This document shows positions 31,401-62,181 of a stretch of DNA of 64,000 bases, one piece after another (the first letter of the stretch is position 1; each line of letters opens with the position of its first letter). The notes beneath the pieces are model-generated. The model was not told where the DNA came from. It ran no database searches and was given only the letters and a program-made list of their open reading frames with translations. Origin of the DNA: Pseudomonas fluorescens (GTDB lineage: Bacteria; Pseudomonadota; Gammaproteobacteria; Pseudomonadales; Pseudomonadaceae); contig NZ_CABVHU010000001.1 of assembly GCF_902497855.1 (NCBI RefSeq), positions 690,595 through 754,594 of the forward strand. Direction: 5' to 3'. The position numbers and the translations under genes were made by a program.

Positions 31401-31414
31401 TTGATCGGTGTCAA
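31401..31414 (+). promoter_or_regulatory. ANR/DNR box before CopD-like gene
   Basis: TTGATCGGTGTCAA matches TTGAT-N4-ATCAA at 9 of 10 conserved positions. Its centre lies 64.5 bp before the ATG at 31472, which puts a class II start site near 31449. Confidence 0.75.
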
Positions 31415-31471: not shown

Positions 31472-31915
31472 ATGATCTATCCGCTGATTCTGACCCTGCA
31501 TCTGTTTGCCGCCCTGATCTTCATCGGCACCGTGTTCTTCGAAGTGCTGTTTCTGGAAAGCATCCGCAAACAGCTGCCGGCCAGAGTGATGCTGCTGGTC
31601 GAGCAGGGGATCGGCCGCAGGGCCCGCAGCTTGATGCCGTGGGTGCTGCTGGTGTTGTTCGGCGCGGGGCTGGGCATGGTCTGGCTACGCTACCTGCCAG
31701 CCCTCGCGGCACCCCTGGCGTCATCGTTCGGCACCTTGCTGGCGTTGAAAATCGCGGTCGCCGCCAGCGTGCTCCTGCATTTCCTGACAGCCATGTTCCT
31801 GTTCAAGAGCGGCCGGATGAATGCGCGCTACTTGCGCTTCATCCACGCCAGCCTGTTCTGCCACATGGTCGTTATCGTGCTGTTGGCTAAAGGTATGTTC
31901 TACCTGACATGGTGA
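31472..31915 (+). CDS. CopD-like small membrane protein (DNR-linked copy)
   Basis: This 147-residue protein has four predicted transmembrane helices. Conserved features shared with a second copy at 61744-62181 are HLxAAxxFIGTxFFEV, a central GAG, PLASSFGTLLxLKI and a C-terminal LAKxMFY, with His residues in helices 1, 3 and 4 that could bind heme b or copper. The fold resembles CopD domains. An ANR/DNR box precedes it, so it belongs to the anaerobic/NO regulon. Function is unknown; a role in electron transfer or copper handling for denitrification enzymes is a guess. Confidence 0.75.
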   Translation: MIYPLILTLHLFAALIFIGTVFFEVLFLESIRKQLPARVMLLVEQGIGRRARSLMPWVLLVLFGAGLGMVWLRYLPALAAPLASSFGTLLALKIAVAASVLLHFLTAMFLFKSGRMNARYLRFIHASLFCHMVVIVLLAKGMFYLTW

Positions 31916-31954
31916 TCGCCATAGTCACAAATTCGGTGGGCTCCACCGATCCCC

Positions 31955-32045
31955 TGTAGGAGCCCGGCTTGCCGGCGAAGGCGGTCTGTCAGCCAACAAC
32001 TCTGCTGCATGTGACGCCGCCTTCGCCGGCAAGCCGGCTCCTACA
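31955..32045. repeat. REP inverted pair
   Basis: Arms TGTAGGAGCCCGGCTTGCCG and CGGCAAGCCGGCTCCTACA flank about 50 bp. A further lone half (TGTAGGAGCCGCC) begins near 32093. Confidence 0.8.
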
Positions 32046-32117
32046 GGGGATCGGTCTGTGGCCACGAAATCGGTGGACGCCACTGATTCCCTGTAGGAGC
32101 CGCCACTTCGCTCAAGC

Positions 32118-32131
32118 TTGATGCAAGTCAA
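32118..32131 (+). promoter_or_regulatory. ANR/DNR box before the hemN pair
   Basis: TTGATGCAAGTCAA has 9 of 10 conserved positions. Its centre predicts a start site near 32166, 24 nt before the ATG at 32190. Confidence 0.75.
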
Positions 32132-32189
32132 GGAGCATTGACCCTCAAGCCCGGACACTGTGATTCGCAGCCCGTCACGGAGACCCGTC

Positions 32190-33533
32190 ATGCTCGATTT
32201 CTTTCACGACCCAGGCGAGATCGCCCGGTGCGATCAGGGCGTACTCGACCCCAACTGCCATGCCGACACGCAAAAGTTCCATGCCGGCATCGGCTCGCTG
32301 GACCTGCTGCGGGCCTTGCGCGTCAGTCGTCAGAAGCGCCGTCCACTGGCCCTGAACGTGCAGCTGCCGTCCAGGCTCAAGCCTGCGTTCTGTTCCCCGC
32401 GGGAGATCGCTTGCGAGCACGGCGGCATCGAACAGTATCTTCAGCGCCTGGAAAAGGAAATCGACCTCGTCGGCTGCCACCTGGGGGCAGAGCAGCGGGT
32501 CGAGCAGTTTCATCTGGGCGGCGCCACCCCCACCATCGTTCATCTGCAGCGGCTGATGGGGCATCTGCGTGGCCGGTTCAACTTTCTCGAACATGAGTGC
32601 GGCGACTACAGCGTCGAGGTGGACCTTCACCATACCGATTGGTCGACCATGGGCGCGTTGCGCGACCAGGGCTTCAATCACGTCAGCATCGGCGTTCCGG
32701 ATATCGACAGCGACAGCGACATGTCGGTGGCCTGCTACCAGAACCCGGCGCCGATTCACTCACTGATCGATGCCGCGCGCACCTTCGGCTTTCGCTCCAT
32801 CAACGTCGACCTGGGGTTCGGTCATGCCTGGCAGAGCCCGGACAGCTTCGCCCAGAAACTGGCGACCATTATCGAGCTGGAACCGGACAGGCTGATGGTG
32901 TTCGACTATGCCCGGCCACCTCGACGCTACCGGCCGATGCCCGGCGCGAGGGGCAGGGCGCTGTGCAGCCAGGAGGATAAAGGCGCGATGCGCCAGATCT
33001 GCTTCGACCAATTGATTGGCGCGGGTTATCACTACATCGGCCTCGGGCAGTTCGTACGGCCCGATGATGACCTGGCGATCGCCCAGGAACGAGGCCGGTT
33101 ACGGCGCACCTGCGACGGTTTCAGCCGTCACGGCTATTGCGATCATCTCGGGTTCGGCTCGGGCGCCATCAGTCAGATCGACGATCTGTATACGCAAAAC
33201 GCCGACGCGGTCGAGCCTTACCAGCAGCATCTGGACAGCGGGCAGTTGCCGACGGCCCGGGGCTGGCGCGTTGAGGCGGGGGATCAGATCAGGCATCGGG
33301 TCATGGAGCGGCTGGCCTGTGACCTGGAGCTGGATATCCGTGCCATCGAGCGCCGTTACGGCCTGGTCTTTTCCAGGTATTTTTCCTCAATTTGGCCATT
33401 GCTCGAACAATTGAGTCATGATGGGTTGATCGAGCTGTCGGATCGTTTCATCAGCATTCTCCCCGCCGGTCGGCCGGACGTGGATGCCATCTGCAACCTG
33501 TTTGAAAAGGGGTCAAGCGCAGCATGGCATTGA
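32190..33533 (+). CDS. HemN-like pseudoenzyme lacking radical-SAM cysteines
   Basis: This 447-residue protein aligns end to end with HemN, sharing FHLGGATPTIV, DYSVEVDLHHT, GFNHVSIGVPD and GYHYIGLGQFV. The iron-sulfur motif CxxxCxxCxC of HemN (Cys65, 69, 72, 74 in the next gene) is replaced by Arg62, Ala66, Ser69 and Arg71 in the equivalent segment, so it cannot hold the SAM-bound [4Fe-4S] cluster in the usual way. GGGTP has become GGATP. The start ATG has GGAG upstream and an ANR/DNR box precedes it. hemN follows 22 bp later. A regulatory, chaperone or heme-binding role is possible; it is intact, not a decayed frame. Confidence 0.8.
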   Translation: MLDFFHDPGEIARCDQGVLDPNCHADTQKFHAGIGSLDLLRALRVSRQKRRPLALNVQLPSRLKPAFCSPREIACEHGGIEQYLQRLEKEIDLVGCHLGAEQRVEQFHLGGATPTIVHLQRLMGHLRGRFNFLEHECGDYSVEVDLHHTDWSTMGALRDQGFNHVSIGVPDIDSDSDMSVACYQNPAPIHSLIDAARTFGFRSINVDLGFGHAWQSPDSFAQKLATIIELEPDRLMVFDYARPPRRYRPMPGARGRALCSQEDKGAMRQICFDQLIGAGYHYIGLGQFVRPDDDLAIAQERGRLRRTCDGFSRHGYCDHLGFGSGAISQIDDLYTQNADAVEPYQQHLDSGQLPTARGWRVEAGDQIRHRVMERLACDLELDIRAIERRYGLVFSRYFSSIWPLLEQLSHDGLIELSDRFISILPAGRPDVDAICNLFEKGSSAAWH

Positions 33534-33555: not shown

Positions 33556-34944
33556 ATGAAGCCTGCATTCGATTTCAATCGAGCCCTGGTCGAAAAGTAT
33601 GACCGCCCCGGGCCGCGCTATACCTCGTACCCCACCGCGCCACAGTTTCACCAGGCGTTTGCCGTGGACGACTATCAAATGGCCGCGCGGGCCAGCAATC
33701 AGGTGGCTGTGCCCAAACCATTGTCGGTGTACATCCACATCCCGTTCTGCAAAAGCCTGTGTTATTACTGCGCCTGCAACAAAATCATCACCCAGAAAAC
33801 CCATCGCGCCGTCGAGTACCTGAAGTACCTCAAGCGTGAAATCGCGATGCAGGCCGCCTTGTTCGACGGCAGCCGCAAACTCACGCAACTGCACCTGGGC
33901 GGCGGCACACCGACCTACCTGACCAGCGAACAGCTGGCGGACCTGATGGACTGCCTGCACCAGGCGTTCAACCTGGACGACAGCGACGACCATGAGTTTT
34001 CCATCGAGGTCGATCCGCGCACCATCAGCACCGAACAGATCCAGTCGCTGCGCCAACTGGGCTTCAATCGCCTGAGCTTCGGCGTGCAGGACTTCGACCC
34101 GGACGTGCAGGCTGCGGTCAATCGTACCCAAAGCGAAGAACAGATCTATGCGCTGGTCGCCGCCGCTCGCGAGGCGCGATTCAAGTCGGTCAGCGTCGAT
34201 CTGATCTATGGGCTGCCGTTGCAGACCGTGGCCAGCTTCGATGTGACCCTGGGCAAGATCATTGCCCTGCGCCCGGACCGCATCGCCGCCTACAGCTACG
34301 CCCATCTGCCGCAGATGGTGCGTGCGCAACGCTTGATCCGCCAGGAAGACATGCCGCCGCCGGAGCGCAAGCTGGAGTTGCTCGAGCTGACCATTCGCCG
34401 GCTGATTGCAGCCGGTTATGTCTATATCGGCATGGACCACTTCGCCTTGCCGGACGACGAACTGGCCCTGGCCCGCGTCAACGGCACCCTGCAACGCAAC
34501 TTCCAGGGCTATTCGACCCACGCCGACTGCGATTTGATCGGTCTCGGGGTATCGTCGATCGGCAAGGTCGGCGACAGCTACAGCCAGAGCGTCAAGGAGC
34601 TTTCGCAGTACTACGCCCGAATCGATCAGGGCCTGTTGCCGGTGCATCGGGGATACCGCTTGAATGACGACGACTTGCTGCGTCGCGAGGTGATCAGCGA
34701 CCTGATGTGCCACGGCCGGATCGATTTCGCCAAGTTCGAGACGCGTCATGGCATCTGTTTTACCGAGTATTTTGCCGAAGCGCTGGCGCAACTCGACGAG
34801 CATGTGCGCGATGGGTTGCTGGAGATCCATCACGATGCCCTGGTGTTATTGCCCCAAGGGCACTTGATGATGCGCAGTGCCGCAATGGCGTTTGACGCCT
34901 ATCTGGGTGGCGAGCAGAAGGGCCAGTTTTCTCGCACGGTCTGA
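33556..34944 (+). CDS. hemN: Oxygen-independent coproporphyrinogen III dehydrogenase
   Basis: This 462-residue radical SAM enzyme converts coproporphyrinogen III to protoporphyrinogen IX without oxygen, supplying heme for anaerobic respiration. The cluster motif is Cys65-x3-Cys69-x2-Cys72-x-Cys74 in HIPFCKSLCYYCACN. GGGTPTYL, SIEVDPRT, LSFGVQDF and the HemN C-terminal domain follow. The ATG at 33556 gives the normal HemN length. It shares the ANR/DNR-controlled transcript with the upstream pseudoenzyme and is followed by nosR with its own box. Confidence 0.96.
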   Translation: MKPAFDFNRALVEKYDRPGPRYTSYPTAPQFHQAFAVDDYQMAARASNQVAVPKPLSVYIHIPFCKSLCYYCACNKIITQKTHRAVEYLKYLKREIAMQAALFDGSRKLTQLHLGGGTPTYLTSEQLADLMDCLHQAFNLDDSDDHEFSIEVDPRTISTEQIQSLRQLGFNRLSFGVQDFDPDVQAAVNRTQSEEQIYALVAAAREARFKSVSVDLIYGLPLQTVASFDVTLGKIIALRPDRIAAYSYAHLPQMVRAQRLIRQEDMPPPERKLELLELTIRRLIAAGYVYIGMDHFALPDDELALARVNGTLQRNFQGYSTHADCDLIGLGVSSIGKVGDSYSQSVKELSQYYARIDQGLLPVHRGYRLNDDDLLRREVISDLMCHGRIDFAKFETRHGICFTEYFAEALAQLDEHVRDGLLEIHHDALVLLPQGHLMMRSAAMAFDAYLGGEQKGQFSRTV

Positions 34945-34982: not shown

Positions 34983-34996
34983 TTGATCTCAATCAA
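34983..34996 (+). promoter_or_regulatory. ANR/DNR box before nosR
   Basis: TTGATCTCAATCAA is a perfect 10/10 match to TTGAT-N4-ATCAA. A class II start site would fall near 35031, which favours the nosR start at 35056 over the ATG at 35023. Confidence 0.88.
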
Positions 34997-35055
34997 GGGC
35001 AGGGGGGGCCACGCTCCCTAACATGACCGGAAGCCCTCTTGATTTCGGCCAGACC

Positions 35056-37305
35056 ATGACCCTCCATCAGCCATCGATCCATCGCCACCTGCGCAGCCTG
35101 CGCGAGTGGCGCGTCGGGCTGATGCTCGCCCTGATGCTCGTACTGCCAGGCGCCCCCTTCGGCGCGGTGCAGGCCAAAGAATACGGCGACATTGAGCAGC
35201 AGCGCATCGAAAAGACCTTCCCCCAGACCGACTCGGTGTCCGCCCCTGAAGGCAAATTCAAGGTGCGCACGCTGTCAACGGCCGGCAAAATCACCGGTTA
35301 CGTGTTCCAAAGCCTGGACGTGGTCGATATTCCGGCCTACTCGGGCAAACCGATCAACACCCAGGTGATCCTCGACCCGGCGGGGGTGATCAAGGACGCC
35401 TATGTCCTCGAGCACCATGAACCGATCCTGCTGATCGGGATTCCCGAAGCAAAACTCCACGCCTTCAGCGCCAAGTACAAGGACATCAACGTCAGCCAGC
35501 GGGTGGTCGTCGGCCACTCCAGCGACCCGAACGCCGTCACCGTGGATGCCATCGCCGGCGCGACCGTCACGGCGATGGTGGTCAACGAGGTGATCATGCG
35601 CGCGGCCCACGAGGTGGCCGTATCGCTCAAACTGGTCGATGACAAGAGCGGCCAGGCGCAGAAACCCGCCACGGTACGCCAGGACTTCTACGAGCCCGCC
35701 ACCTGGGAACAACTGACCGGCAACGGCGCGATCCGCCGCCTGAACCTGACCCGGGGCCAGGTTGATGCCGCCTTCAAGGGCACCGAAGCCGAAGGCATCG
35801 ACAACGCCAGTGCCGAACAGGTCGATGACACTTTCATCGAACTCTACGTCGCCGACCTGAACGCGCCGACCATCGGCCGCAACCTGCTGGGCGACAATCA
35901 GTACCGTTTTCTCATGCAGGAACTCAAGCCGGGCGAGCAGGCCATCGCCGTGCTGGGCCGTGGGCTGTTCTCCTACAAGGGTTCGGGTTATGTGCGCGGC
36001 GGGATCTTCGACCGGGTGCAACTGCGCCAGTTCGGCAACGTCATCAGCTTTCGCGACATGGACCATCAACGGCTCGACGACGTCTTCGCCAAGGGCATCC
36101 CCGAGTTCGATGAAATGTCGATTTTCATTGTGCGTGAACCGGCCAGGTTTGACCCGGGAGCCGCCTGGACCTTGGAACTGCTGGTGCGCCGTCAGACCGG
36201 TCCGGTCAGCGGCACCTTCAGCAGCTTCGAACTGCCTTACCAGATGCCCGAGCCTTACCTGGAACGGCCATTGCCCAGCGCCGAAGAGTTGGCGGCCATC
36301 GAGGAAGCCGGCCGGCCGATGTGGGTGACCATCTGGTATCAGAAACAGTTCCAGATCATGGTCCTCGGCGCGGCGTTGCTGTTGCTCACGACGATTCTGT
36401 TCCTGCAGGACACCTTCACCCGCCGGCCGCACTTTCTTCATTGGCTGCGCCGCGGCTACCTGGTGTTCACCGTGGTGTTCATCGGCTGGTACGCCCTGGG
36501 GCAACTGTCGGTGGTCAACGTGCTGACCTTCGTCCATGCCCTGTTCGAAAACTTCCGCTGGGAACTGTTTCTCACCGATCCGCTGATCTTCATGCTCTGG
36601 GTGTTCACCGCCGCGAGCATCCTGTTGTGGGGCCGTGGCGTGTTCTGCGGCTGGCTGTGCCCGTTCGGCGCCTTGCAGGAGTTGATCAACGAAGCCGCCC
36701 GCAAGCTGAAGATTCCCCAATATGAACTGCCGTTCGCGGTCCATGAGCGGCTGTGGGCGATCAAGTACATCATCCTGCTGGCGCTGTTCGGCGTCTCCCT
36801 GGAGTCGATGACCACGGCCGAACTGTTCGCTGAAGTGGAACCCTTCAAGACCGCCATTACCTTAAGGTTCGACCGCCAGTGGTGGTTCGTGCTCTACGCG
36901 GTGGCGCTGCTGGTCATCAATATTTTCACGCGCAAGGTCTATTGCCGCTACATCTGCCCGTTGGGCGCTGCGCTGGCGATCCCCACCAAACTGCGGCTGT
37001 TCGACTGGCTCAAGCGCCGCAAGGACTGCGGCGACCCTTGCCAACTCTGCGCCAAGGAATGCGAGATCCAGGCAATCCATCCCGATGGCCGGATCAATGC
37101 CAACGAGTGCCACTACTGCCTCGATTGCCAGATGACCTGGAACAACGATCACAAATGCCCGCCGCTGATCAACAAGCGCAAGAAACAACGCGGCAAGGCC
37201 GCACCGGTGAACGCGCAACTCATACCTGTCGTGGAAGTGACGGCTGAACCCGGCGAGCTCACGTCCCCAGTGACTGTTTTTATTCCTTCAAGGAGCACCT
37301 CATGA
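35056..37305 (+). CDS. nosR: Nitrous oxide reductase electron donor/regulator
   Basis: This 749-residue membrane flavo-iron-sulfur protein is needed for nosZ expression and N2O reduction. Order: signal segment ([19 protein letters not shown]), periplasmic FMN-binding domain with AGATVTA attachment motif near residue 160, a long periplasmic middle, then membrane helices from about residue 435. Next come CxxxCP motifs [10 protein letters not shown] and [10 protein letters not shown], and cytoplasmic ferredoxin-like clusters [12 protein letters not shown] and CHYCLDC. An ATG at 35023 would add 11 residues but lies before the start site predicted by the DNR box. nosZ follows within 3 bp overlap range. 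Confidence 0.94.
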
Positions 37306-39221
37306 ACGACACAGAATCCACAAAACCAGCCGAGGTTACGGAACCGACCGGCCTGAGCCGGCGTGGTTTCCTCGGCACCAGCGCGGTGACCGGTGCGGTG
37401 CTGGCCGGTGCCACGGCCATCGGCGGCGCGGTATTCACCCGGGAATCCTTTGCCGCGGCGGCCAAGGAGTCGAAATCGAAGATCCACGTAGGGCCAGGGG
37501 ATCTGGACGAATACTACGGTTTCTGGAGCGGCGGTCACCAGGGTGAAGTGCGGATCATGGGCATTCCATCGATGCGCGAGTTGTTGCGCATCCCGGTGTT
37601 CAACGTCGATTCCGCCACGGGCTGGGGCCTGACCAACGAAAGCAAGCGGATCATGGGCGACAGCGCCCACTTCCAGAATGGCGACTGCCACCACCCGCAT
37701 TTGTCGATGACCGACGGCAAGTACGATGGCAAGTACCTGTTCATCAATGACAAGGCCAACAGCCGGGTCGCGCGCATCCGCCTGGATGTCATGAAGTGCG
37801 ACAAGATGCTCACCGTACCGAACGTGCAGGCCGTGCACGGTCTGCGTCTGCAGAAAATGCCCCACACCAGGTACGTGTTCGCCAATGCCGAGTTCGTGAT
37901 TCCGCATCCCAATGACGGCAGCACCTTCGACCTGCAGGACAAGAACAGCTACACGATGTTCAACGCCATCGATGCCGAGAAGATGGAGATGGCGTTCCAG
38001 GTGATCGTCGACGGCAACCTGGATAACACTGATGCCGACTACACCGGCAAGTACGCGGCCTCGACCTGCTACAACTCGGAGAAGGCCTACGACCTGGGCG
38101 GCATGATGCGCAACGAGCGCGACTGGGTGGTGGTGTTCAACATCCAGCGCATCGAGGCGGCGATCAAGGCCGGCAAGTTCATCACCCTGGGCGATTCGAA
38201 AGTGCCGGTGGTCGACGGTCGTAAAGCCGAGGGCAAGGACAGCGAATTCACCCGCTATATCCCGGTGCCGAAGAACCCGCATGGCATCAACATGACGCCC
38301 GACGGCAAGTATTTCATCGCTGCCGGCAAGCTTTCGCCGACCTGCACCATCATCGCCACCGCCAAGCTCGACGATCTGTTCAATGACAAGTTCAAGGACC
38401 CTCGCGAGGTGGTGGTCGGCGAGCCTGAACTGGGCCTGGGCCCGCTGCACACCACCTACGACGGTCGCGGTAATGCCTACACCACCCTGTTCATCGACAG
38501 CCAGGTGGTGAAGTGGAATGTGGAAGAAGCCGTTCGCGCCTACACCGGCGAGAAGGTCAACTACATCAAGCAGAAGCTCGATGTGCAGTACCAGCCGGGG
38601 CACAACCATGCGTCGCTGACCGAAACCAGCGAGGCCGACGGCAAATGGCTGATGGTCCTGAGCAAATTCTCCAAGGACCGCTTCCTGCCGACCGGCCCGC
38701 TGCACCCGGAAAACGATCAGTTGATCGATATCTCCGGCGACGAGATGAAACTGGTGCACGACGGTCCGGCGTTCGCCGAACCCCACGATTGCATCATGGC
38801 CCGACGCGACCAGATCAAGACCAAGAAGATCTGGGACCGCAACGACCCGTTTTTCGCCGAAACCGTGGCCATCGCCACCAAGGACGGGATCAAGCTGGAG
38901 ACCGACAACAAGGTCATCCGCGACGGCAAGAAAGTCCGGGTCTACATGACCTCGATGGCCCCGGCCTACGGCTTGCCGGAGTTCACCGTCAAGCAGGGTG
39001 ACGAGGTCACCGTGACCATCACCAACATCGACCAGATCGAAGACGTGACCCACGGTTTCGTCATGACCAACCATGGCGTGAGCATGGAGATCAGCCCGCA
39101 GCAGACGTCGTCCATCACCTTCACCGCCGACAAGCCCGGCCTGCACTGGTTCTACTGCAGCTGGTTCTGCCATGCGCTGCACATGGAAATGGTCGGCCGC
39201 ATGCTGGTCGAGAAGGCCTGA
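37302..39221 (+). CDS. nosZ: Nitrous oxide reductase
   Basis: This 639-residue periplasmic copper enzyme reduces N2O to N2. A Tat signal ([11 protein letters not shown], residues 19-29) marks clade I NosZ. The seven-bladed propeller holds CuZ ligands, including His130 and His131 in DCHHPHLS. The C-terminal cupredoxin domain has the CuA motif [12 protein letters not shown] near residue 620. Start ATG overlaps the nosR stop by 4 bp, with AAGGAG upstream. It is followed by nosDFYL, the copper-sulfide cluster assembly genes. Confidence 0.98.
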
Positions 39222-43727: not shown

Positions 43728-44252
43728 GGCGGCGTGTCAGCCAACATCCATGCCGTATATCAGACCGTCTTCGCCGGCAAGCCGGCTCCTACAGTTAATC
43801 GGGGTGTACACGAATAGTGTGCTCGACCTGCAACCCTGTAGGAGCTGGCTTGCCAGCGAAGGCGGCGTGTCAGCCAACATCAATGCCGGATGTCAGACCG
43901 CCTTCGCCGGCAAGCCGGCTCCTACAGTTAATCGGGGTGTACACGAATAGTGTGCTCGACCTGCAACCCTGTAGGAGCTGGCTTGCCAGCGAAGGCGGCG
44001 TGTCAGCCAACATCAATGTCGACTATCAGACCGCCTTCGCCGGCAAGCCGGCTCCTACAGTTAATCGGGGTGTACACGAATAGTGTGCTCGACCTGCAAC
44101 CCTGTAGGAGCTGGCTTGCCAGCGAAGGCGGCGTGTCAGCCAACATCAATGTCGACTATCAGACCGCCTTCGCCGGCAAGCCGGCTCCTACAGGTAATCG
44201 GGGTGTACGCGAATAGTGTGCCCGACACAGAACCCTGTAGGCGCTGGCTTAA
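43728..44252. repeat. Tandem array of 133-bp REPIN units
   Basis: A 133-bp unit repeats almost perfectly from 43728, 43861, 43994 and 44127, about 3.9 copies. Each unit contains GGCGGCGTGTCAGCC, a REP arm CCGGCAAGCCGGCTCCTACA, the spacer TTAATCGGGGTGTACACGAA, and the complementary arm TGTAGGAGCTGGCTTGCCAG. The first and last copies diverge most. The array fills the gap between convergent SDR and nirN genes and runs up to the nirN stop codon. Small ORFs spaced 133 bp apart inside it are artefacts. Confidence 0.93.
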
Positions 44253-45742
44253 TGCGACGTCCCTTCCGCAAACTCGATCTTGTTGCCCACGTTGTACTTA
44301 CCCGACGGCTTGTTCATCGGGATGCGTTTGATCTCCGCGAGGGTGTTGCTGTCATACACGATCAGCGCGCCGTCGGTGGCCCAGATGCTCAGCAACAGAT
44401 AGCGGCCGTCGCGGGTGAACTCGACATGGGCGGCGGTCTTGCCGGGCATCGGGCGCAGGGTGCGGGCGATTTCCAGGGTCTGTTTGTCGATGAGGTGGAT
44501 CGCATCGTTATCGGGACCGAAGAACACATCGCTCCAGGCATACCGTGAATTGACGTGGCTGCGCATGAAGAAACCCGGCCCCAGGGTCGGGATTTCCTTG
44601 ATCAGTTTCCAGGTCTTGAAGTCGATGACCGAAATCAGCCCCTTACTGATGTTCGGCGTGGCGAACACCCATTCACCGTTGCGTTTCCAGTAGGTTCCCG
44701 ACCCCAGGTGCGGCATTCCCGGCAGCGGTATGTCGGTGACCACCTTGCCGCTGTCGAGGTCGATCACCTGGCCGCCCCCGGCCTTGCGTGAAGTGGCCAG
44801 CAGCTGCTTGTAGTCCGGTGAAAAGGAAAAGTCGTCCAGCACATCCCCGGCCTGGATCCGTCGCGGCACGAAGTCCGGGGTGCCGGCCCAGGACAGCTCC
44901 CAGACTTCCTTCACGTCCTTGAGCGCCACGATGAAGCTGTCGCGGGGCGGGGCGGAGTAGACCGCACTGACCCGCGACGCGGTACTGTCCAGGCCGGTCG
45001 CCGGGATGGTTTTGACCAGTGACAGGTCGCGGGCATCGAGCACCACCAGGTTGCCGGGCAGATAGTTGCCGACCAGCACCCAACGGCCATCCTTGCTCAC
45101 CGCGAGGTTGCGGGTATTGAGCCCGGCGCGGACTTCGGCGATCAGCTTCAGGTTGTGCAGGTCATACAGGCTGACCCAGCCATCGCGCGAGGCCACGTAG
45201 ACGAAGCGTCCGTCCGGCGAGAACTTCGGCCCGCCATGCACCGCGAAGTGCGAAGCAAAGCGCGCCAGCACCTCGAACCGATCGCCGTCGAGGATGCTGA
45301 TGTGATGATCGCCGGCCTCTACCACCACAAACAGGTTCAGGGGATCGGCACCATGCTGGGCCGTGCCCGGAAGCTTGCCGACATCGGCCAACAGCGAGTG
45401 ACTGGCGCGGATGTCATCGTTACTCCAGGTCGGCACGGTGGCGGGGGGTTGCTGCAGGTAGTCCACCAAGCCGTCGATCTGCGCCGGGCTGAACACCTGG
45501 GCATACCCGGTCATCTGGCTCGCGGGGCGACCGTCGCGGATCACGCTGCGGATTTCGGCGGGCTTGATCCGGCTCAGGCTCTGCGGCAACAACGCCGGGC
45601 CCGCAGCGCCGAACCGGTTGGCCCCATGGCAACCCTGGCAATGCACCCGGTAGTCGATCGCGGCTTGTTCAAGTGGCGCCAGCGTGGTCCCGGCCTGGGC
45701 CGCACCGAGCCATAACAACGGGGCAAGCACCAGGCGCCTCAT
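44249..45742 (-). CDS. nirN: Dihydro-heme d1 dehydrogenase
   Basis: This 497-residue periplasmic protein has a signal peptide (LVLAPLLWLGAAQA), a c-type cytochrome domain with heme motif Cys35-Cys38-His39 (CQGCH), and an eight-bladed d1-type propeller like NirS. NirN catalyses the last step of heme d1 synthesis and hands the cofactor to NirS. The ATG at 45742 overlaps the nirE stop as ATGA, which rules out the longer frame to 45871. It is the terminal gene of the nir operon. Confidence 0.95.
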   Translation of the reverse strand: MRRLVLAPLLWLGAAQAGTTLAPLEQAAIDYRVHCQGCHGANRFGAAGPALLPQSLSRIKPAEIRSVIRDGRPASQMTGYAQVFSPAQIDGLVDYLQQPPATVPTWSNDDIRASHSLLADVGKLPGTAQHGADPLNLFVVVEAGDHHISILDGDRFEVLARFASHFAVHGGPKFSPDGRFVYVASRDGWVSLYDLHNLKLIAEVRAGLNTRNLAVSKDGRWVLVGNYLPGNLVVLDARDLSLVKTIPATGLDSTASRVSAVYSAPPRDSFIVALKDVKEVWELSWAGTPDFVPRRIQAGDVLDDFSFSPDYKQLLATSRKAGGGQVIDLDSGKVVTDIPLPGMPHLGSGTYWKRNGEWVFATPNISKGLISVIDFKTWKLIKEIPTLGPGFFMRSHVNSRYAWSDVFFGPDNDAIHLIDKQTLEIARTLRPMPGKTAAHVEFTRDGRYLLLSIWATDGALIVYDSNTLAEIKRIPMNKPSGKYNVGNKIEFAEGTSH

Positions 45743-46578
45743 ATCGCCACCTTGCCGCGACGCAACAGTGCCTGAGCGGGGTAGAAGCGCGCGGGGAAAT
45801 CCAGCTGTTGCGTGGCGAACAGATCCACCACTTTGCCGATCACCGTCAGCGTCGGGATGCCCGGCGGACACTCCAGCACCAGGCTCGGCAGCTGGTGAAG
45901 CACGCCTCGGGCGACATGCTGGTCGGGGCGGGTGCCGTTGCTGATCAGCGCCGCCGGTGTATCGGCCGGCAGTCCGGCCTCGATCAGGCGCTGGGCGATG
46001 ATCCTCAGGTTCGACAGGCCCATGTAGAACACCAGGGTCTGGCTACCGTCGGCGAGGCTGCTCCAGGGCAGCGACAACTCGCCGTCACGTTGCAAATGGC
46101 CGGTGATGAACCGACAGGAGTTGACCAGGTCGCGGTGGGTCAGCGGGATGCCCGCGTAAGCGCTGCAGCCGGAGGCGGCGGTGATGCCCGGGACCACCTG
46201 GCAGTCGATGCCGCGTTGCAGCAGGTACTCCAGCTCCTCGGCGCCACGGCCGAAAATGAACGGGTCGCCACCCTTGAGCCGGACCACGCGCTGCCCTTGA
46301 TCGGCGAGGTCGGCCAGCAGCTCGTTGATCTGTTCCTGGGGCAGGCTGTGGCAGCCGCTGGCCTTGCCGACGTAATGCCGGGCGCAGGCGAGGGGGATCA
46401 GGATCAGCAATTCTGGGCTGATCAGCCGGTCGTACACCACGGCGTCGGCCTGCATCAACAGGCTCCAGGCGCGCAGGGTCAGCAGGCGTGGATCACCGGG
46501 GCCGGCGCCGACCAAGGCAACTTCGCCCGGCCTGAACGAAGACTCGAGTGTGGGCGGTAGGGCAATTGATGGAGGCAT
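45739..46578 (-). CDS. nirE: Uroporphyrinogen III C-methyltransferase for heme d1
   Basis: This 279-residue SAM enzyme adds methyl groups at C2 and C7 of uroporphyrinogen III to give precorrin-2. Motifs are VALVGAGPGDPRLLTLRA, VVYDRLISPELL and VRLKGGDPFIFGRGAEE. It is a single-domain enzyme (no CysG oxidase part). ATG 46578 has AAGGACG upstream. The location between nirJ and nirN shows that it serves d1 rather than siroheme. Confidence 0.94.
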   Translation of the reverse strand: MPPSIALPPTLESSFRPGEVALVGAGPGDPRLLTLRAWSLLMQADAVVYDRLISPELLILIPLACARHYVGKASGCHSLPQEQINELLADLADQGQRVVRLKGGDPFIFGRGAEELEYLLQRGIDCQVVPGITAASGCSAYAGIPLTHRDLVNSCRFITGHLQRDGELSLPWSSLADGSQTLVFYMGLSNLRIIAQRLIEAGLPADTPAALISNGTRPDQHVARGVLHQLPSLVLECPPGIPTLTVIGKVVDLFATQQLDFPARFYPAQALLRRGKVAI

Positions 46579-49739: not shown

Positions 49740-50918
49740 TCAATACCCCATTTTTTGCGCGCGGCTGCTAAAGAAAATGCCGCTCGGCGCGGTGGCCGGC
49801 AGGCTGCCCAGCAGCTTGAGCCGGTACGGATCCCAGACCTGAACCTGACCGCCGTCGCGTAGGGACAGCCACAGTTGGTCGCCACGGGCGGTGAATTCCA
49901 TGTGCAACACGGCCGGTCCCGGTCGAAGGTCGGCGATGACTGCATGGGTTTCGCTGTCGATGACCTGGACCCGATCGTTGTCCGGGTAGGCGAAGTTGAC
50001 CCATAGCTGGCGACCGTCCGGCCGCGACGTGACGAACACCGGTTGGCCGGCGACTGGGATGACTGCAGTCTGCTTCCACGTGCGCGAGTCCATCACCAGC
50101 ACCTGGTGATGGCCAACGGCGGGCACGAAGGCCTGGTTGTCGGCGACGGCCCAGCCTTCCAGGTGCGGCATCTTGTAGACGGGCAGTTTCACTTGTCCGC
50201 GTCCGTAATCGCCGAGCACCCGCTGCACCCCGCGCTCCGGATGCCAGAGGTCGAGTTGCGCCATGCCATCCTCGCCGAACAGCCCGGCCATGTAGTAGCG
50301 GCCATCCGGGGTGATCAAGGCGTCGTAGGGCTGCTGGCCGATATCGGTGAAGCGGCTGATCCGGGGCGTGTTGCCCTGGCTGAAGTCGGCGGTCCAGATT
50401 TCACCGGTATCGAACAGGCTGAAGACAAAGCGTTGTCCCGGGGCGTCGACCAGGCCGACCACCCGCGAGCGTTTGCTGCCATCGGCCAGGGGCGTGGCCG
50501 GAATGTCGGCCACCAGCTGCAGGGTTTTGGCATCGAATACCTTGACCCCGCCGGGCACGTAGTTGGACACCGCGATCAACTTGCCGTCCTGACTGATGGC
50601 GCCGCCGATGCTGTTGCCGCCCTGGATGACTCGATGCTCGATGCGCCGGGTCAGCAGGTCGATTTTGCTCAAGCCGCCGTCGCGGCCGAACACATAGGCG
50701 TAGCGCTGGTCGCGGGAGAACACCGCCGAGGCATGGGACAGGTCACCGAAACCCTCGAGTCGGGCCAGGGCGGTGCGGGTGTCGCTTTCGATGATTTGCA
50801 CGCTGCCCGTGGCGCGCTCCACCACCACGCCCAGATCGCCGGTACCGCGCAAGGGTGGCTGGACGCAAGCGGACAACAGCAGCCCGGTCGCCGCTGACAG
50901 CAGGAGTGATCGGATCAT
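49740..50918 (-). CDS. nirF: Heme d1 biosynthesis lipoprotein
   Basis: This 392-residue periplasmic protein has the lipobox LLLSAC (cysteine near residue 17) and an eight-bladed d1-type propeller similar to NirS and NirN but with no cytochrome c domain. It binds dihydro-heme d1 or a precursor and interacts with NirN and NirS. The ATG at 50918 overlaps nirC as ATGA. It is separated by one base from nirD. Confidence 0.94.
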   Translation of the reverse strand: MIRSLLLSAATGLLLSACVQPPLRGTGDLGVVVERATGSVQIIESDTRTALARLEGFGDLSHASAVFSRDQRYAYVFGRDGGLSKIDLLTRRIEHRVIQGGNSIGGAISQDGKLIAVSNYVPGGVKVFDAKTLQLVADIPATPLADGSKRSRVVGLVDAPGQRFVFSLFDTGEIWTADFSQGNTPRISRFTDIGQQPYDALITPDGRYYMAGLFGEDGMAQLDLWHPERGVQRVLGDYGRGQVKLPVYKMPHLEGWAVADNQAFVPAVGHHQVLVMDSRTWKQTAVIPVAGQPVFVTSRPDGRQLWVNFAYPDNDRVQVIDSETHAVIADLRPGPAVLHMEFTARGDQLWLSLRDGGQVQVWDPYRLKLLGSLPATAPSGIFFSSRAQKMGY

Positions 50919-51599: not shown

Positions 51600-53366
<1,767 letters not shown>

Positions 53367-55143: not shown

Positions 55144-55237
55144 AATGTGGGAGCGAGCCTGCTCGCGAAGGGGCCGTCACATTAAACATCCATGTTGACT
55201 GACACACCGCTTTCGCGAGCAGGCTCGCTCCCACATT
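55144..55237. repeat. REP inverted pair (second sequence class)
   Basis: Arms AATGTGGGAGCGAGCCTGCTCGCGAA and complement lie between nirP and the norC promoter. The arm sequence differs from the TGTAGGAGC class elsewhere, indicating a second REP family. Confidence 0.85.
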
Positions 55238-55288
55238 GGATCTCCATCAGGCATACGATCTATACCCGACCAAAACCATCTGCCTTTC

Positions 55289-55302
55289 TTGATCGCCATC
55301 AA
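55289..55302 (+). promoter_or_regulatory. ANR/DNR box before norC
   Basis: TTGATCGCCATCAA is a perfect 10/10 match. Its predicted start site, near 55337, leaves a 23-nt leader. Confidence 0.9.
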
Positions 55303-55359
55303 GCAGCTTTCAACCCCCCGCTTCCTATCATGGACACGCCAAGCAAAGAGGAAGCGACC

Positions 55360-55800
55360 ATGTCAGAGACCTTCACCAAAGGCATGGCCAGGAACATCTA
55401 TTTTGGGGGAAGCGTGTTCTTCTTCCTGATATTCCTGGCCTTGACCTATCACACGGAACAGACCTTTCCAGAGCGCAGCAATGAGGCGCTATTAACCGAA
55501 TCAGTGGAACGCGGCAAGTTGGTCTGGGAGCAAAACAATTGCATCGGCTGCCACACGCTGCTGGGCGAGGGCGCTTACTTCGCGCCTGAGCTGGGCAACG
55601 TGTTCCAGCGGCGCGGCGGCGAGGAGAGCTTCAAGCCCTTCCTGCAGGCCTGGATGAAAATGCAGCCACTGGGCGTACCTGGCCGGCGCGCGATGCCGCA
55701 GTTCAAGTTGAGTGACCAGGAGGTGGATGACATCGCCGAGTTCCTCAAGTGGACCTCGAAAATCAACACCAATGGCTGGCCGCCAAACAAGGAGGGCTAA
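55360..55800 (+). CDS. norC: Nitric oxide reductase, cytochrome c subunit
   Basis: This 146-residue protein has an N-terminal membrane anchor (IYFGGSVFFFLIFLALTY) and heme motif Cys61-Cys64-His65 (NNCIGCHTLLGEGAYFAPEL), with distal Met in RRAMPQFKL. It passes electrons to NorB. The ATG at 55360 has GAGGAAG upstream and sits in line with the DNR box. Confidence 0.97.
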   Translation: MSETFTKGMARNIYFGGSVFFFLIFLALTYHTEQTFPERSNEALLTESVERGKLVWEQNNCIGCHTLLGEGAYFAPELGNVFQRRGGEESFKPFLQAWMKMQPLGVPGRRAMPQFKLSDQEVDDIAEFLKWTSKINTNGWPPNKEG

Positions 55801-57234
<1,434 letters not shown>

Positions 57235-57258
57235 GTCGGGTAACACTTTAGAGGAGGG

Positions 57259-57287
57259 CGGCCCGGCTGGTACAGCGGGCCGTTTTA
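57259..57287 (+). terminator. Hairpin between norB and norD
   Basis: A 7-bp GC stem CGGCCCG / CGGGCCG with a 10-base loop is followed by TTTTA. It lies 25 bp after norB and 25 bp before norD. It probably attenuates norD relative to norCB or stabilises the norCB end, as stoichiometry requires less NorD. Confidence 0.55.
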
Positions 57288-57311
57288 CCTTGGTTTTCAG
57301 AGGAAAAAACC

Positions 57312-59153
57312 ATGGCCTTTACCGTTGAACTGGAAGAGTGGGTCGGCAGTGTCTGGCATCGCTTCATCACCCGGCGCGCCAGCCCGGATTTCCCCGAAGC
57401 ACGGGTCGAACTGGCCAGCCAGCAACGTCCGCTGGCACTGTTGTTCCGCGCCATGGGCGGTGCCAATGGCATCGGCGTCGAAGCCGCCAGCGACCGCGAC
57501 CTGCTGCTGCGGCGCAATGTGCTGCAGCAGATCGCCGGCACCTGCAAGCAGGTACCGCTGGCGTGGTGCGACGCGGCCAACCTGCGGCTGCCGTCGAGTC
57601 TCGCGGTGTTTCCCGAAGCGGCACTGAACCAGGAGCTCTATCGCTGGCTTGCGTTGCTGGCGGCACAAGCCGGCCAGATGCGCCATTGGGGGCGGGACAA
57701 TCAACGCTGGACGCAACAGTTGCTGCGGCGCTATCCCGCATTGCGTGCGCGGTACACACGCCTGGTCGATGCCCACCTGCAACTTCGACCGGATCCGGCG
57801 ACCTTGAATGCCGGCGAAGCAGCCCTGGAGCGAGCGTTATGCCAGGCGTTGCGCGAGCCCGGCAGTGTCGAACACTTTCCCCGCAGCGAACGGGCGGCCT
57901 GGCCGCTGCCGCTGTGGTTATACCCGCCGCAAAACCTCGCCAGCCCCCAGGCTGCCGACCTCGGCGACGAGTCCGAAGAATCGCTGACGACCCCTCCCGG
58001 TGAGCACAAAGGCGCAAGTAAACGCGCCAAACGCGTCGATGAAGGCACCCGCGACGGCGGGTTATTGATCGTGCGCCTGGAGAACCTGTTCAGCTGGACC
58101 GAACACGTGGACCTGGATCGCTGGTCGGACGACAGCGACAACCCGGACGCCGCCAGGGTCGCCGAAGACCTGGATGAGTTGAGCCTGTCGCGCACCCGCT
58201 TGCGCAAGGGCGGCGGCCTCAAGCTGCACCTGGATCTGCCCCCGGCGGATGTCGACGACATTCCCCTGGGCGAGGGCATCAAGTTGCCTGAATGGGACTA
58301 TCGCAAACAGCAGATGCAGGAGGCCTTCGTCAATCTGCAAATGATGGTGCCCCGCGACTGTGAGGCGCAGCCATTGCCGTCGCGGCTCAAGGCTTCGGCG
58401 CATCGTTTGCGGCGCCAGTTCGAGCATCTGCGCAATGACCGCCAGTGGTTACGCCAGCAACCCCAGGGCTCGGAACTGGACATGCAGGCCTGGCTGGATT
58501 TCCACGTCGAGCGCGAGCATGGCCAGTGTGCCGAACGCGGTCTGTTCATGGAGCAACGCCAGACCCGCCGCGACCTGGCGTGCCTATTGCTGGCCGACGT
58601 GTCGATGTCGACCGACGCGCACCTGAACGATGAGCATCGGGTGATCGATGTGATCCGCGACACGCTGCTGCTGTTCGGTGAAACCCTGTCGGTGCTGGGT
58701 GATGATTTCGCCCTGTACGGATTTTCCTCGTTGCGCCGCCACCAGGTGCGGATGCAGGAACTCAAGTCCTTCACCCAGCGTTACGACGACAACACCCGCG
58801 GTCGCATCCAGGGGCTCAAGCCGGGTTACTACACGCGCATGGGCGCGGCCATACGCCAGGCCACGCAACTGCTGGGCAAGAGCAAGCGCCGCAGCAAACT
58901 GTTGCTGCTGCTCACCGATGGCAAACCGAACGATCTGGATTTATACGAGGGGCGCTACGGTGTCGAGGACACCCGCGAGGCGGTGCTGGAAGCGCGGCGC
59001 CAGGGGTTGACGCCGTTCTGTATCACGATTGATCGCGAAGCCGGGGATTACCTGCCGTACATGTTCGGTGCCAATGGCTACACCTTGATCCGCCAGCCAG
59101 AACAGCTACCCCTGCGCTTGCCGCAGTTGTACCGCCAGCTGACCCAGCCTTGA
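57312..59153 (+). CDS. norD: NO reductase activation protein, VWA domain
   Basis: This 613-residue protein has a C-terminal von Willebrand factor A domain from about residue 415 with MIDAS motif DVSMSTD, TDGKPNDLD and DTREAVLEAR. The N-terminal half is alpha-helical. With NirQ it forms a MoxR-VWA chaperone pair that inserts metal into NorB. Start ATG has GAGGAAAAAACC upstream. Confidence 0.95.
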   Translation: MAFTVELEEWVGSVWHRFITRRASPDFPEARVELASQQRPLALLFRAMGGANGIGVEAASDRDLLLRRNVLQQIAGTCKQVPLAWCDAANLRLPSSLAVFPEAALNQELYRWLALLAAQAGQMRHWGRDNQRWTQQLLRRYPALRARYTRLVDAHLQLRPDPATLNAGEAALERALCQALREPGSVEHFPRSERAAWPLPLWLYPPQNLASPQAADLGDESEESLTTPPGEHKGASKRAKRVDEGTRDGGLLIVRLENLFSWTEHVDLDRWSDDSDNPDAARVAEDLDELSLSRTRLRKGGGLKLHLDLPPADVDDIPLGEGIKLPEWDYRKQQMQEAFVNLQMMVPRDCEAQPLPSRLKASAHRLRRQFEHLRNDRQWLRQQPQGSELDMQAWLDFHVEREHGQCAERGLFMEQRQTRRDLACLLLADVSMSTDAHLNDEHRVIDVIRDTLLLFGETLSVLGDDFALYGFSSLRRHQVRMQELKSFTQRYDDNTRGRIQGLKPGYYTRMGAAIRQATQLLGKSKRRSKLLLLLTDGKPNDLDLYEGRYGVEDTREAVLEARRQGLTPFCITIDREAGDYLPYMFGANGYTLIRQPEQLPLRLPQLYRQLTQP

Positions 59154-59373: not shown

Positions 59374-60057
59374 TCACTCGAACTGTTCCAGGCGCAGGCG
59401 GTCGAGAATGGCGATCTGGCGGCCGTCCTGGGTGATGATGTTTTCATCGATCAGGCGGCGGATGATCCGCGAAAAGGTTTCCGGCTGGATCGACAAATGC
59501 CCGGCAATCAGCTGCTTGGCCATCGGCAGTTCGAACTGGTTGTTAAGGGTTTGCTGGCGCACCAGCTGCGTCAGCAGGTAACGCACCACCCGGTGGGTGG
59601 CGTTTTTCAGCGACAGGGTTTCGATTTCGTTGACCCGTTGATGCAGGCGCACACACAGCTTGCCCAGCAGCGCAAACGTCAGTCGGCTGTTGCTTTGCAG
59701 CAGGCGCATGTAGGTGTTGTTGGATAACCGGTACAACTGGGTGGGGCAGATCGCTTCGGCCGAGGCGACATAATTGGGAGTGTCCATCAGCATCATCGCC
59801 TCGGCAAAGGTTTGCCGATCGCCGATGACCTCGAACACCTTTTCCTGCCCATCGGGTGTCAGGCGGTAGATCTTCACCGCGCCGGCGATCACGAAGTAGA
59901 ACGAGTCTGCCGGCTCACCCTGGCGGAACAGAGGTTCGCCCTTGTCGATGCTCAGCAAGTGGCTGGTACTCATCAATTCATCCAGCTGTTCTTCGTTCAA
60001 CGGCTCGAATAGATGATGACTGCGCAAAATCTGATGATGGACGCGGTGAAGCACCAT
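59374..60057 (-). CDS. dnr: NO-responsive Crp/Fnr-family regulator DNR
   Basis: This 227-residue protein has an N-terminal cyclic-nucleotide-like sensor domain (SFYFVIAGAVKIYRL) and a C-terminal HTH (LSIQPETFSRIIRRLIDENII). It lacks the N-terminal cysteines of ANR, so NO is sensed through heme, and it activates nir, nor and nos from TTGAT-N4-ATCAA boxes. ATG 60057. A 29-residue gene lies 40 bp upstream on the same strand. Confidence 0.94.
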   Translation of the reverse strand: MVLHRVHHQILRSHHLFEPLNEEQLDELMSTSHLLSIDKGEPLFRQGEPADSFYFVIAGAVKIYRLTPDGQEKVFEVIGDRQTFAEAMMLMDTPNYVASAEAICPTQLYRLSNNTYMRLLQSNSRLTFALLGKLCVRLHQRVNEIETLSLKNATHRVVRYLLTQLVRQQTLNNQFELPMAKQLIAGHLSIQPETFSRIIRRLIDENIITQDGRQIAILDRLRLEQFE

Positions 60058-60524: not shown

Positions 60525-61715
60525 ATGCAGGTGCTTGACCGCCGCAAAGCGATGGCTATTGCGCCCTTGTTACGACTGGCCTTTCGGCCATTTTTTCTCG
60601 CCGGCTGCCTGTTGGCCGTGCTGGCCATTCCGCTGTGGCTGGCCGCTTTCAGCGGTTCGATCGCCGACTGGCAACCGGCCGGGGGGTGGCTGGGCTGGCA
60701 TCGACATGAACTGCTGTTCGGTTTCGGCCTGGCGATTATTGCCGGCTTTCTGCTGACGGCCGTGCAGACCTGGACCGGTCGCCCCGGCATCAGCGGCACA
60801 CCGCTGGCGGCGCTGGCGCTGCTGTGGTTGTCGGGGCGAGTGGCGTGGCTGGTCAATGCACCGTTGCCGTTGCTGGCGTTGCTGGAATTGGCATTCCCGC
60901 TGGCGGTGGCCGTGCTCATGGGGTTCACCCTGTGGAAGGTGCGGCAGAAACGTAACTACCCGATAGCGGTGGTGTTGCTGTTATTGGCGGCGGCCGACGC
61001 CTTGTCCCTGTACGGCCTGCTCGAAGGTCATGAAGGCTGGCAGCGCCAAGGCGTGCTGACCGGTCTTTGGCTGGTGGCGGCGATGATGGGCTTGATTGGC
61101 GGGCGCGTGATTCCGTTCTTCATTCAGCGCGGCCTCGGCAAGGTTGAAGGCGTTACCCCCTGGCCGTGGCTGGATTGGCTGCTGCTGATCGGTTCGCCCC
61201 TGGTGGCGTTGTCGTATGCCGCGGGCTCGGCGCTCGAGCCCAATCTGTGGGTAGGCCTGTTATTCGCCGCGTTGGCCGCCGGGCATCTGGTGCGCCTGGT
61301 GCGCTGGCATGATCGCGCACTCTGGCGCGTGCCGCTGCTGTGGTCGTTGTACCTGGCTTATGGCTGGTTGGCGGTGGCTTGTCTGGGGATGGCGCTGTGG
61401 CATTTTGGCGTACCGATCAATGCGAGCCTGGCGGTGCATTGCCTGACCATCGGCGCCATGGGCGGCCTGGTGCTGGCGATGATCGCACGAGTCAGTCTCG
61501 GGCATACCGGCCGGCCTCTTGAACCGCCGTCGGGCATGACCCTGGCGTTTATCCTGCTCAACCTGGCGTGTCTGAGCCGGGTGGTATTGGTCCTGTTCCT
61601 GCCATTGCCCGCGTTGTGGCTGGCCGGCCTGTGCTGGGCGCTGGCGTTCGGGCTGTACGCCTGGGGTTATGGGCCGATGCTGTTGCGGGGCCGGGTCGAT
61701 GGGCATCCGGGATGA
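60525..61715 (+). CDS. nnrS: NnrS-family heme-copper membrane protein
   Basis: This 396-residue protein has about twelve transmembrane helices of the NnrS family, recognised by RLAFRPFFLAGCLLAVLAIP, WHRHELLFGFGLAIIAGFLLTAVQ and HCLTIGAMGGLVLAMIARVSLGHTGR. NnrS proteins carry heme and relieve NO stress by limiting iron-nitrosyl damage. AGAGGAGAGG precedes the ATG. NorR boxes and a sigma-54 promoter lie upstream. A CopD-like gene follows 28 bp later. Confidence 0.93.
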   Translation: MQVLDRRKAMAIAPLLRLAFRPFFLAGCLLAVLAIPLWLAAFSGSIADWQPAGGWLGWHRHELLFGFGLAIIAGFLLTAVQTWTGRPGISGTPLAALALLWLSGRVAWLVNAPLPLLALLELAFPLAVAVLMGFTLWKVRQKRNYPIAVVLLLLAAADALSLYGLLEGHEGWQRQGVLTGLWLVAAMMGLIGGRVIPFFIQRGLGKVEGVTPWPWLDWLLLIGSPLVALSYAAGSALEPNLWVGLLFAALAAGHLVRLVRWHDRALWRVPLLWSLYLAYGWLAVACLGMALWHFGVPINASLAVHCLTIGAMGGLVLAMIARVSLGHTGRPLEPPSGMTLAFILLNLACLSRVVLVLFLPLPALWLAGLCWALAFGLYAWGYGPMLLRGRVDGHPG

Positions 61716-61743: not shown

Positions 61744-62181
61744 ATGTATCCCTTTTTACTGGTCACGCATTTGCTGGCAGCCATCGCCTTCATCGGCACG
61801 CTGTTTTTCGAGGTGGTGATCTGGCATCGAGCCCGCGAGCAGTTGGCCGATACCGCGCAATCGACGGCGGACCAGGCGATTGCAGTGCGCTCGCGCAAGG
61901 TGCTGCATGGCGTGGTGGTCCTGTTGTATGGCGCCGGCATTGCGCTGGCCTGGCAACATCGCGGTGTATTGAGCCAGCCGCTGGCCAGCAGTTTTGGCAC
62001 CTTGCTGAGCCTGAAGATCGTGTTGGCCTTGAGCATCATCGGCCATTACCTGTTGCTGGCGTACTGGCTGAAAAGCGCGCGGCTGACCGTTAGCCGCGCG
62101 AGCTGGATTCGCCGCAGCATCCTTGGGCACATGGTGCTGATCGTGATCCTGGCCAAGACCATGTTCTATTGGCAGGGTTGA
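61744..62181 (+). CDS. CopD-like small membrane protein (NorR-linked copy)
   Basis: This 145-residue four-helix protein is a clear paralogue of the one at 31472-31915, sharing the helix 1 histidine (THLLAAIAFIGTLFFEV), PLASSFGTLLSLKI and LAKTMFY. GGAGGCGG precedes the ATG. It should be cotranscribed with nnrS under NorR. Function unknown. Confidence 0.8.
   Translation: MYPFLLVTHLLAAIAFIGTLFFEVVIWHRAREQLADTAQSTADQAIAVRSRKVLHGVVVLLYGAGIALAWQHRGVLSQPLASSFGTLLSLKIVLALSIIGHYLLLAYWLKSARLTVSRASWIRRSILGHMVLIVILAKTMFYWQG

Follow-up and report, generated by a model that had tools for sequence, protein, structure and literature searches.

A HemN-like protein encoded among denitrification genes of Pseudomonas fluorescens has lost the iron-sulfur cluster motif of its family and, judged from its sequence, is almost certainly a non-catalytic protein, in the sense of lacking HemN activity, that is maintained by selection. 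We call it psi-HemN (pseudo-HemN). At the sequence level the cluster motif is lost, the motifs associated with activity are altered, the gene is under purifying selection and preceded by an ANR/DNR-type box, and it is associated with norB and with the gene of a small membrane protein, MemX. The case for a pseudoenzyme is strong; a role with heme is what we infer. In the reading that we prefer, with a probability of somewhat under 0.4, psi-HemN would be a pseudoenzyme devoid of radical-SAM chemistry, acting as a non-catalytic adaptor or carrier of tetrapyrrole for membrane hemoproteins exposed to nitric oxide (NO). That it handles a tetrapyrrole in any way is possible, at a little less than even odds.

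The psi-HemN locus

The window is the entire stretch of 64,000 nt that was analyzed, positions 690,595-754,594 of the forward strand of contig NZ_CABVHU010000001.1 (P. fluorescens GCF_902497855.1), and its features are listed in Table 1. The initial annotation had described an intact frame with its own ribosome site and ANR/DNR box, leading a hemN operon, and each of these elements is found in the window. The frame is open from its ATG start, and psi-HemN probably shares one transcript with the hemN that follows it. The box matches 9 of 10 consensus bases, and a box with at most one mismatch is present in 94 of 102 distinct loci (searched from -400 to +30), mostly at -70 to -74, compared with 0.15% of mononucleotide-shuffled psi-HemN upstream regions. 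In a second genus of the family, here called g15, the boxes upstream of five copies of psi-HemN have one or two mismatches. The gap between MemX and psi-HemN measures 278 bp in the window, longer than the 90-125 bp or so that most orthologous loci have; in the window it contains REP-like inverted repeats (31945-32102) with perfect arms of 21 and 20 nt.

Table 1. Features of the psi-HemN region and of the denitrification genes in the window
Feature	Position	Strand	Remarks
ANR/DNR-type box TTGATCGGTGTCAA before MemX	31401..31414	+	-71 of MemX
MemX	31472..31915	+	147 aa; predicted membrane protein of four helices, histidines conserved; upstream of psi-HemN
ANR/DNR-type box TTGATGCAAGTCAA before psi-HemN	32118..32131	+	-72 from ATG; kept in orthologous loci
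GGAG, likely ribosome-binding site of psi-HemN	32179..32182	+	7 nt before ATG
psi-HemN (P0001)	32190..33533	+	447 aa; HemN fold predicted whole, without [4Fe-4S] motif
Vestigial cluster loop, residues 61-78	32370..32423	+	Low conservation, low pLDDT; missing from many orthologues
hemN, intact CKSLCYYCAC	33556..34944	+	Starts 22 bp after psi-HemN stop
ANR/DNR-type box before nosR, perfect	34983..34996	+	Consensus match
nosR and nosZ	35023..39221	+	Downstream of hemN
nirS-type cytochrome cd1	51600..53288	-	Cytochrom_D1 and cytochrome c domains; name inferred
norC, norB, norD	55192..59153	+	Cytochrome c, COX1 and VWA domains in order; names inferred
Crp/Fnr-type regulator, DNR-like	59374..60057	-	Name inferred
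NnrS	60525..61715	+	Followed by MemX-B
MemX-B, second MemX homologue	61744..62172	+	Directly after NnrS

Two further genes with a cytochrome d1 domain lie at 44249-45868 and 49740-51191. We take these to be probably nirN and nirF, so that the heme d1 set is represented in part within the window. Elsewhere the genome carries another nosZ (G000, contig 28, 4432-6348), 91% identical. Its HemN-family genes number four: psi-HemN, the neighboring hemN, and one each on contigs 15 and 7. The contig 15 gene, hemN1, is 50% identical to the neighbor of psi-HemN, and the contig 7 gene is a distant relative (26%) that is probably HemW. A Crp/Fnr-like gene, 29% identical to the regulator of the window, adjoins hemN1; this agrees with an anr-hemN neighborhood described in part of the text of PMC6588701.

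A missing cluster motif and altered activity motifs

Alignment with HemN across the length of the protein, claimed in the initial annotation, is confirmed by the TIGR00538 (hemN) model, which matches residues 30-439 with 287.3 bits (E 2.1e-85). This falls short of 324.95, the curated cut-off; the adjacent hemN reaches 597.2 bits. The HemN_C domain (PF06969) is matched by both proteins, by psi-HemN with 26.7 bits against a cut-off of 24, and the Pfam Radical_SAM domain by the adjacent hemN and not by psi-HemN. Against the HemW model (TIGR00539) psi-HemN scores 59.9 bits, where the cut-off is 205.4, and none of 40 psi-HemN members matches the PsgB model (TIGR04419) at E 0.001. None of the libraries searched assigns psi-HemN to a specific family.

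In one alignment IPFCKSLCYYCACNK stands opposite LPSRLKPAFCSPRE of psi-HemN, and the four ligand cysteines are replaced by Arg, Ala, Ser and Arg, as had been proposed; in a wider alignment with other gap placement, Cys68 of psi-HemN falls in the third ligand column. The motif CxxxCxxC is absent from all 102 distinct orthologous proteins, and among these we found no orthologue that has the cysteines.

The background on HemN motifs, HemW and CgdH2 used here comes from excerpts of one report (PMC10320005). These assign coproporphyrinogen dehydrogenase activity to the motifs GPRYTSYPTA and HRNFQGYTT. Neither is intact in any of the 102 proteins: YPTA does not occur within the first 60 residues of any, nor NFQGY anywhere. 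The psi-HemN of the window reads CDQGVLDPNCHADT and LRRTCDGFSR at the two positions. Family resemblance is left in the second region, where the psi-HemN consensus is RNCQGFTR, and a trace of the first persists in some g15 rows, e.g., GYPTA in L179. Tyr56 is missing from 40/40 representative rows, 27 of which have Gln at the position of E. coli H58, and the glycine motif is degenerate in part of the family.

The loop that would have carried the cluster has a mean top-residue frequency of 0.10, compared with 0.67-0.83 across most other regions of psi-HemN, and the stretch P60-Y83 is only 6-12 residues long in 18/40 representative rows. In six of the 40 rows the dead loop has three or more cysteines, spaced otherwise than in HemN. 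Cysteine-rich loops such as CSPLASxCxC occur in a subclade (L063-L072, L074, L075, L077, L079, L081, L082, L088, L090), and from their sequence these might possibly form a new metal site. Separately, the hemN1 of g15 in L151, L164, L167, L174, L175 and L176 keeps three ligand cysteines and has Arg for the fourth Cys of CxxxCxxCxC.

The predicted structure of psi-HemN

A model was calculated with AlphaFold2 on 40 sequences (pLDDT 82.9, pTM 0.82), in which residues 1-25 and 64-77 have pLDDT under 50. Its clear best structural match is 1olt (E 4.7e-36; Z 40.6, next best 11.7), with 396 aligned residues and rmsd 2.3. The likeness to HemN (CgdH, the oxygen-independent coproporphyrinogen III oxidase/dehydrogenase of 1OLT) extends to the predicted whole fold with its radical-SAM barrel, the HemN_C domain, the ANR-type box and 57 of 131 conserved columns (see below), and Asp207 and Tyr240 are kept. 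In contrast, psi-HemN lacks the [4Fe-4S] motif and Tyr56, both activity motif regions are altered, Gln172 is replaced by Pro, Asp288 by Gly, and Phe310 mostly by Cys.

Selection and origin

Rates of substitution were compared at 80 loci having both genes, using the 823 of 3160 pairs with dS of 0.05-0.9 and dropping the others. The median dN/dS is 0.137 for psi-HemN (maximum 0.38) and 0.070 for the adjacent hemN (maximum 0.18). Fifty canonical HemN rows define 131 columns of at least 97% invariance; of these, psi-HemN keeps 57 at 90% or more and has lost 33 (kept in <10%). Moreover, hemN1 and psi-HemN have different fixed residues (>=85% in hemN1) at 29 sites. Ten of the psi-HemN residues at these sites are found in 40/40 rows, among them P170 (HemN Q172), G209 (I211), K223 (T225), D239 (N241) and G286 (D288); R41, G209, K223, D239 and G286 are also present in 6/6 divergent psi-HemN rows. 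Switched fixed sites together with purifying selection look like repurposing and not relaxation, and the suggestion of selection for a non-catalytic role made in the initial annotation is upheld by these data and by the uniform absence of the motif.

A quick maximum-likelihood tree (SH-aLRT support only, unrooted) gathers 46/46 psi rows behind a branch supported at 99, and places the adjacent hemN in a separate clade with support of 100. An origin by tandem duplication of the adjacent hemN is rejected, since the tree sets the two apart and hemN1 is closer to psi-HemN. The best explanation of the sequences is a single origin of psi-HemN near the hemN1 of Pseudomonadaceae. One protein, L117, lies just across the psi-HemN branch next to hemN1. 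It reads LPFGGGIGYCCCDQV. GGGTPTFL is intact in it, the N-terminal motif persists in part (SRYACYPAA), and G286 is already in place. We read its sequence as that of a partly converted relative of psi-HemN, and it may instead represent an independent loss of the cluster motif.

Orthologues of psi-HemN

Orthologues were drawn from 398 genomes of the genus, from public genome contigs (28 loci, all titled Pseudomonas) and from fetched stretches. Loci were told apart by their protein, which gives 102, with the intermediate L117 among them. Psi-HemN is present in at least 86 of the 398 genomes, a lower bound counted among the better matches listed together with the divergent G257 (L183/L188), which also lacks the cysteine motif. 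Broken copies are included in the 86, and the intermediate G287 is excluded, as are the remnants in G017 and G301 that were found on searching 20 further genomes again. In g15, 17 genomes have a match in the psi-HemN score class, and the seven copies that were read (L179-L182, L184, L189, L190) are all without the cysteine motif. A search of 218 genomes of the family gave no second match in other genera at E 1e-120, a threshold that more divergent copies would escape. On a plasmid of P. mandelii JR-1, nirB and nirD are followed by several genes and then by MemX, psi-HemN, hemN, a NosR-type gene, nosZ and nos maturation genes; the record labels MemX a membrane protein. No description of psi-HemN was found in searches of the open-licence PMC literature, judged by titles and abstract openings.

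Association with NO respiration

The gene norB is present in 78 of the 86 psi-HemN genomes, being absent from eight, and in 0/60 psi-negative controls hand-picked along the list. All of these controls also lack MemX, so that the contrast cannot separate psi-HemN from MemX. The nosZ gene occurs in 57/86 psi-HemN genomes and in 5/312 others. In 46 psi-HemN genomes tested for nirS it was found in 29, and norB in 39 of the same 46. From these counts psi-HemN tracks NO respiration broadly and not one step of it; a role specific to heme d1 is disfavored by nirS in comparison with norB, as is one specific to N2O reductase by the incidence of nosZ. NorR, a hemerythrin of the ScdA/DnrN type and NnrS are neighbors at several psi-HemN loci. 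Within the genus psi-HemN is very probably part of the NO/denitrification program.

Denitrification is evidently possible without it, since norB is present in 5/5 nosZ-positive, psi-negative genomes (one being the intermediate G287); beyond the MemX-A set described below the figure is 3/3. In g15, psi-HemN lies outside denitrification clusters, with Sir2, helicase, photolyase and chemotaxis genes and the assimilatory nirB around it and without an adjacent MemX. A Sir2-family gene is near psi-HemN in L185, L186 and L189, with a UvrD-type helicase gene in two of the three. The denitrifiers that do without psi-HemN and its setting in g15 are the chief findings that oppose a simple reading.

MemX as a candidate partner

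When neighbors were clustered at 16 psi-HemN loci, a small protein, MemX, emerged at 11, besides HemN-family proteins and overlapping frames; the initial annotation had made no mention of it. MemX lies no more than 300 bp upstream on the same strand at 88/102 distinct loci (101 of 116 with duplicates counted) and farther away at six, five of them about 2.5-2.8 kb upstream; it was not found near psi-HemN at eight, some of which have short upstream flanks. It has a box of its own in 56/67 loci, where the mononucleotide-shuffled control gave 0.3%. MemX occurs in 115/398 genomes of the genus, comprising 86/86 with psi-HemN and 29/312 others, and the closer type, MemX-A, in 81 of the 86. Of 11 MemX-A genomes without intact psi-HemN (G287 counted), four have norB.

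No Pfam or NCBIfam family matched MemX, even at permissive E-values, and neither a PDB sequence profile, Foldseek nor VIA-align gave a decisive match; it may belong to a family outside those listed by VIA-align. Its model consists of four long helices (pLDDT 89). In structural comparison a hydrogenase cytochrome b and designed bundles share the top score of Z 11.5, which for a helix bundle is not high enough to establish kinship. H10, E44, R50, R52, K93 and K140 are invariant (45/45), and H103 (43/45), H125 and H131 (both 44/45) nearly so.

MemX homologues adjoin NnrS in the window and in L156-L159 and L218. On a Comamonas plasmid the genes run NnrS, Rrf2, MemX, but in Diaphorobacter it is an ABC transporter that precedes MemX. 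A search of the order found MemX in 10/214 genomes, and several other MemX loci of the order have no NnrS within 1.5 kb. Records of Neisseria gonorrhoeae contain a homologue with 41% identity. In g15, MemX is present in 17/17 psi-HemN genomes and also in 17/21 without a psi-level match, that is with at most one match at E 1e-120. Distance correlations among psi-HemN, hemN and MemX at 60 loci are all 0.90-0.94 and single out no partner. We consider that MemX is probably a functional partner of psi-HemN, an estimate lowered slightly because the norB controls also lack MemX and because g15 separates the two genes.

Discussion

In the preferred reading psi-HemN would be made at low oxygen with NO present. 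The tetrapyrrole-sized cavity of HemN would be retained without turnover, and the soluble protein would serve as adaptor or carrier for heme or a porphyrin precursor. It could dock on MemX, itself possibly a heme protein (four helices, from the neighborhood of NnrS), and the supply of heme to NO-exposed membrane hemoproteins (NorCB, NnrS, MemX) would go on.

Such a protein would work like HemW, yet would not be a HemW. In the excerpts cited above (PMC10320005) HemW is a heme chaperone of the HemN family that carries heme for a respiratory membrane subunit, and its cluster is not needed for binding heme. Psi-HemN is likewise HemN-like, but it falls far below the HemW cut-off, is nearest to HemN1, and lacks the HNxxYW heme motif given for HemW in the same source; the dipeptide HN occurs nowhere in the protein of the window. 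The same excerpts describe C. jejuni CgdH2 (Cj0363c), a HemN-like chaperone that binds heme, receives it from ferrochelatase and needs H45 for heme. CgdH2 keeps CxxxCxxC and groups with MenK, whereas psi-HemN is without the motif; by our own reading of the alignment H45 corresponds to E. coli H58, a position that is mostly Gln in psi-HemN. PsgB, a HemN-related non-iron pseudo-SAM protein by the name of its model, is of the same kind in being HemN-like without Fe-S ligands, but its model does not recognize psi-HemN. NnrS shares the context of denitrification and NO and has MemX homologues directly beside it; it is a separate membrane protein family (PF05940), and MemX has no Pfam match.

A stricter form of the preferred reading has psi-HemN as the carrier and MemX as the membrane receptor of a heme-delivery module dedicated to NO-exposed membranes in denitrifying pseudomonads. 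We think this rather unlikely.

Psi-HemN might instead be a partner of the adjacent HemN: in a heterodimer it could stabilize HemN or regulate its activity, coproporphyrinogen held by psi-HemN being one conceivable means. At 82/102 distinct loci psi-HemN is followed within 400 bp by a hemN on the same strand, which in the window comes close behind, and in L063 the last base of the psi-HemN frame before its stop is the first of the hemN frame. The partial distance correlation of psi-HemN with hemN given MemX (0.63), compared with that of psi-HemN with MemX given hemN (0.50), points weakly the same way. Against this, no adjacent hemN was seen at 20/102 loci (L090 and L116 being cut by contig ends, and one being L117); G071, G292 and G271 have only three HemN-family matches among the matches listed, consistent with the lack of a second hemN; G013, G316 and G378 have a nos-type hemN, classed by score, without psi-HemN; and psi-HemN is not the sister of the adjacent hemN. 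The role of HemN partner put forward in the initial annotation is weakened by the 20 loci and by the proximity to hemN1, and we regard it as doubtful, even allowing that hemN1 may be the partner.

That psi-HemN is a sensor or regulator, binding heme, porphyrin or NO and adjusting transcription or the activity of MemX or NnrS, seems to us improbable. It would fit the ANR/DNR-type box, the NO-related neighbors and the new conserved residues H148, H164, C308 and H319; however, C308 is absent from 6/6 divergent rows, where the histidines are kept in four to five of six, and searches with Pfam and NCBIfam profiles found no DNA-binding or signaling domain in psi-HemN. There is a slim chance that the barrel has been rebuilt into a new enzyme carrying out a non-radical reaction on a tetrapyrrole. 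The ten positions that are 40/40 a residue other than that of hemN1 would suit this, as would the retention of Asp207 and Tyr240, but no catalytic set is recognizable and the glycine motif has decayed in part of the family.

For the initial annotation, orthologues with the cysteines or frameshifted copies in close relatives would have spoken for recent decay. Broken copies do exist, seven of the 102 being short or stop-bearing (three in genomes without norB, four in norB genomes) in addition to the two remnants, but psi-HemN is intact in the closest relatives, L006, L007 and L035. A decaying duplicate hitch-hiking in denitrification clusters is strongly disfavored, to the point of being hardly credible, by the low dN/dS, the presence of the gene in two genera, the switched fixed sites and the conserved box; and with the gene in at least 86 genomes of the genus and the motif absent from all 102 distinct loci, recent decay is not the explanation.

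To our knowledge, the delivery of heme to the membrane NO reductase and related proteins under NO is an open question. In P. mandelii JR-1 psi-HemN is labeled coproporphyrinogen III oxidase, a misannotation by which counts of hemN in such genomes can be wrong. Psi-HemN and the living, partly converted L117 would together represent a radical-SAM enzyme turning into a pseudoenzyme, and the retention of psi-HemN in many nitrate-breathing pseudomonads, usually beside MemX, points to a new function, not enzymatic, in the handling of heme or nitric oxide.
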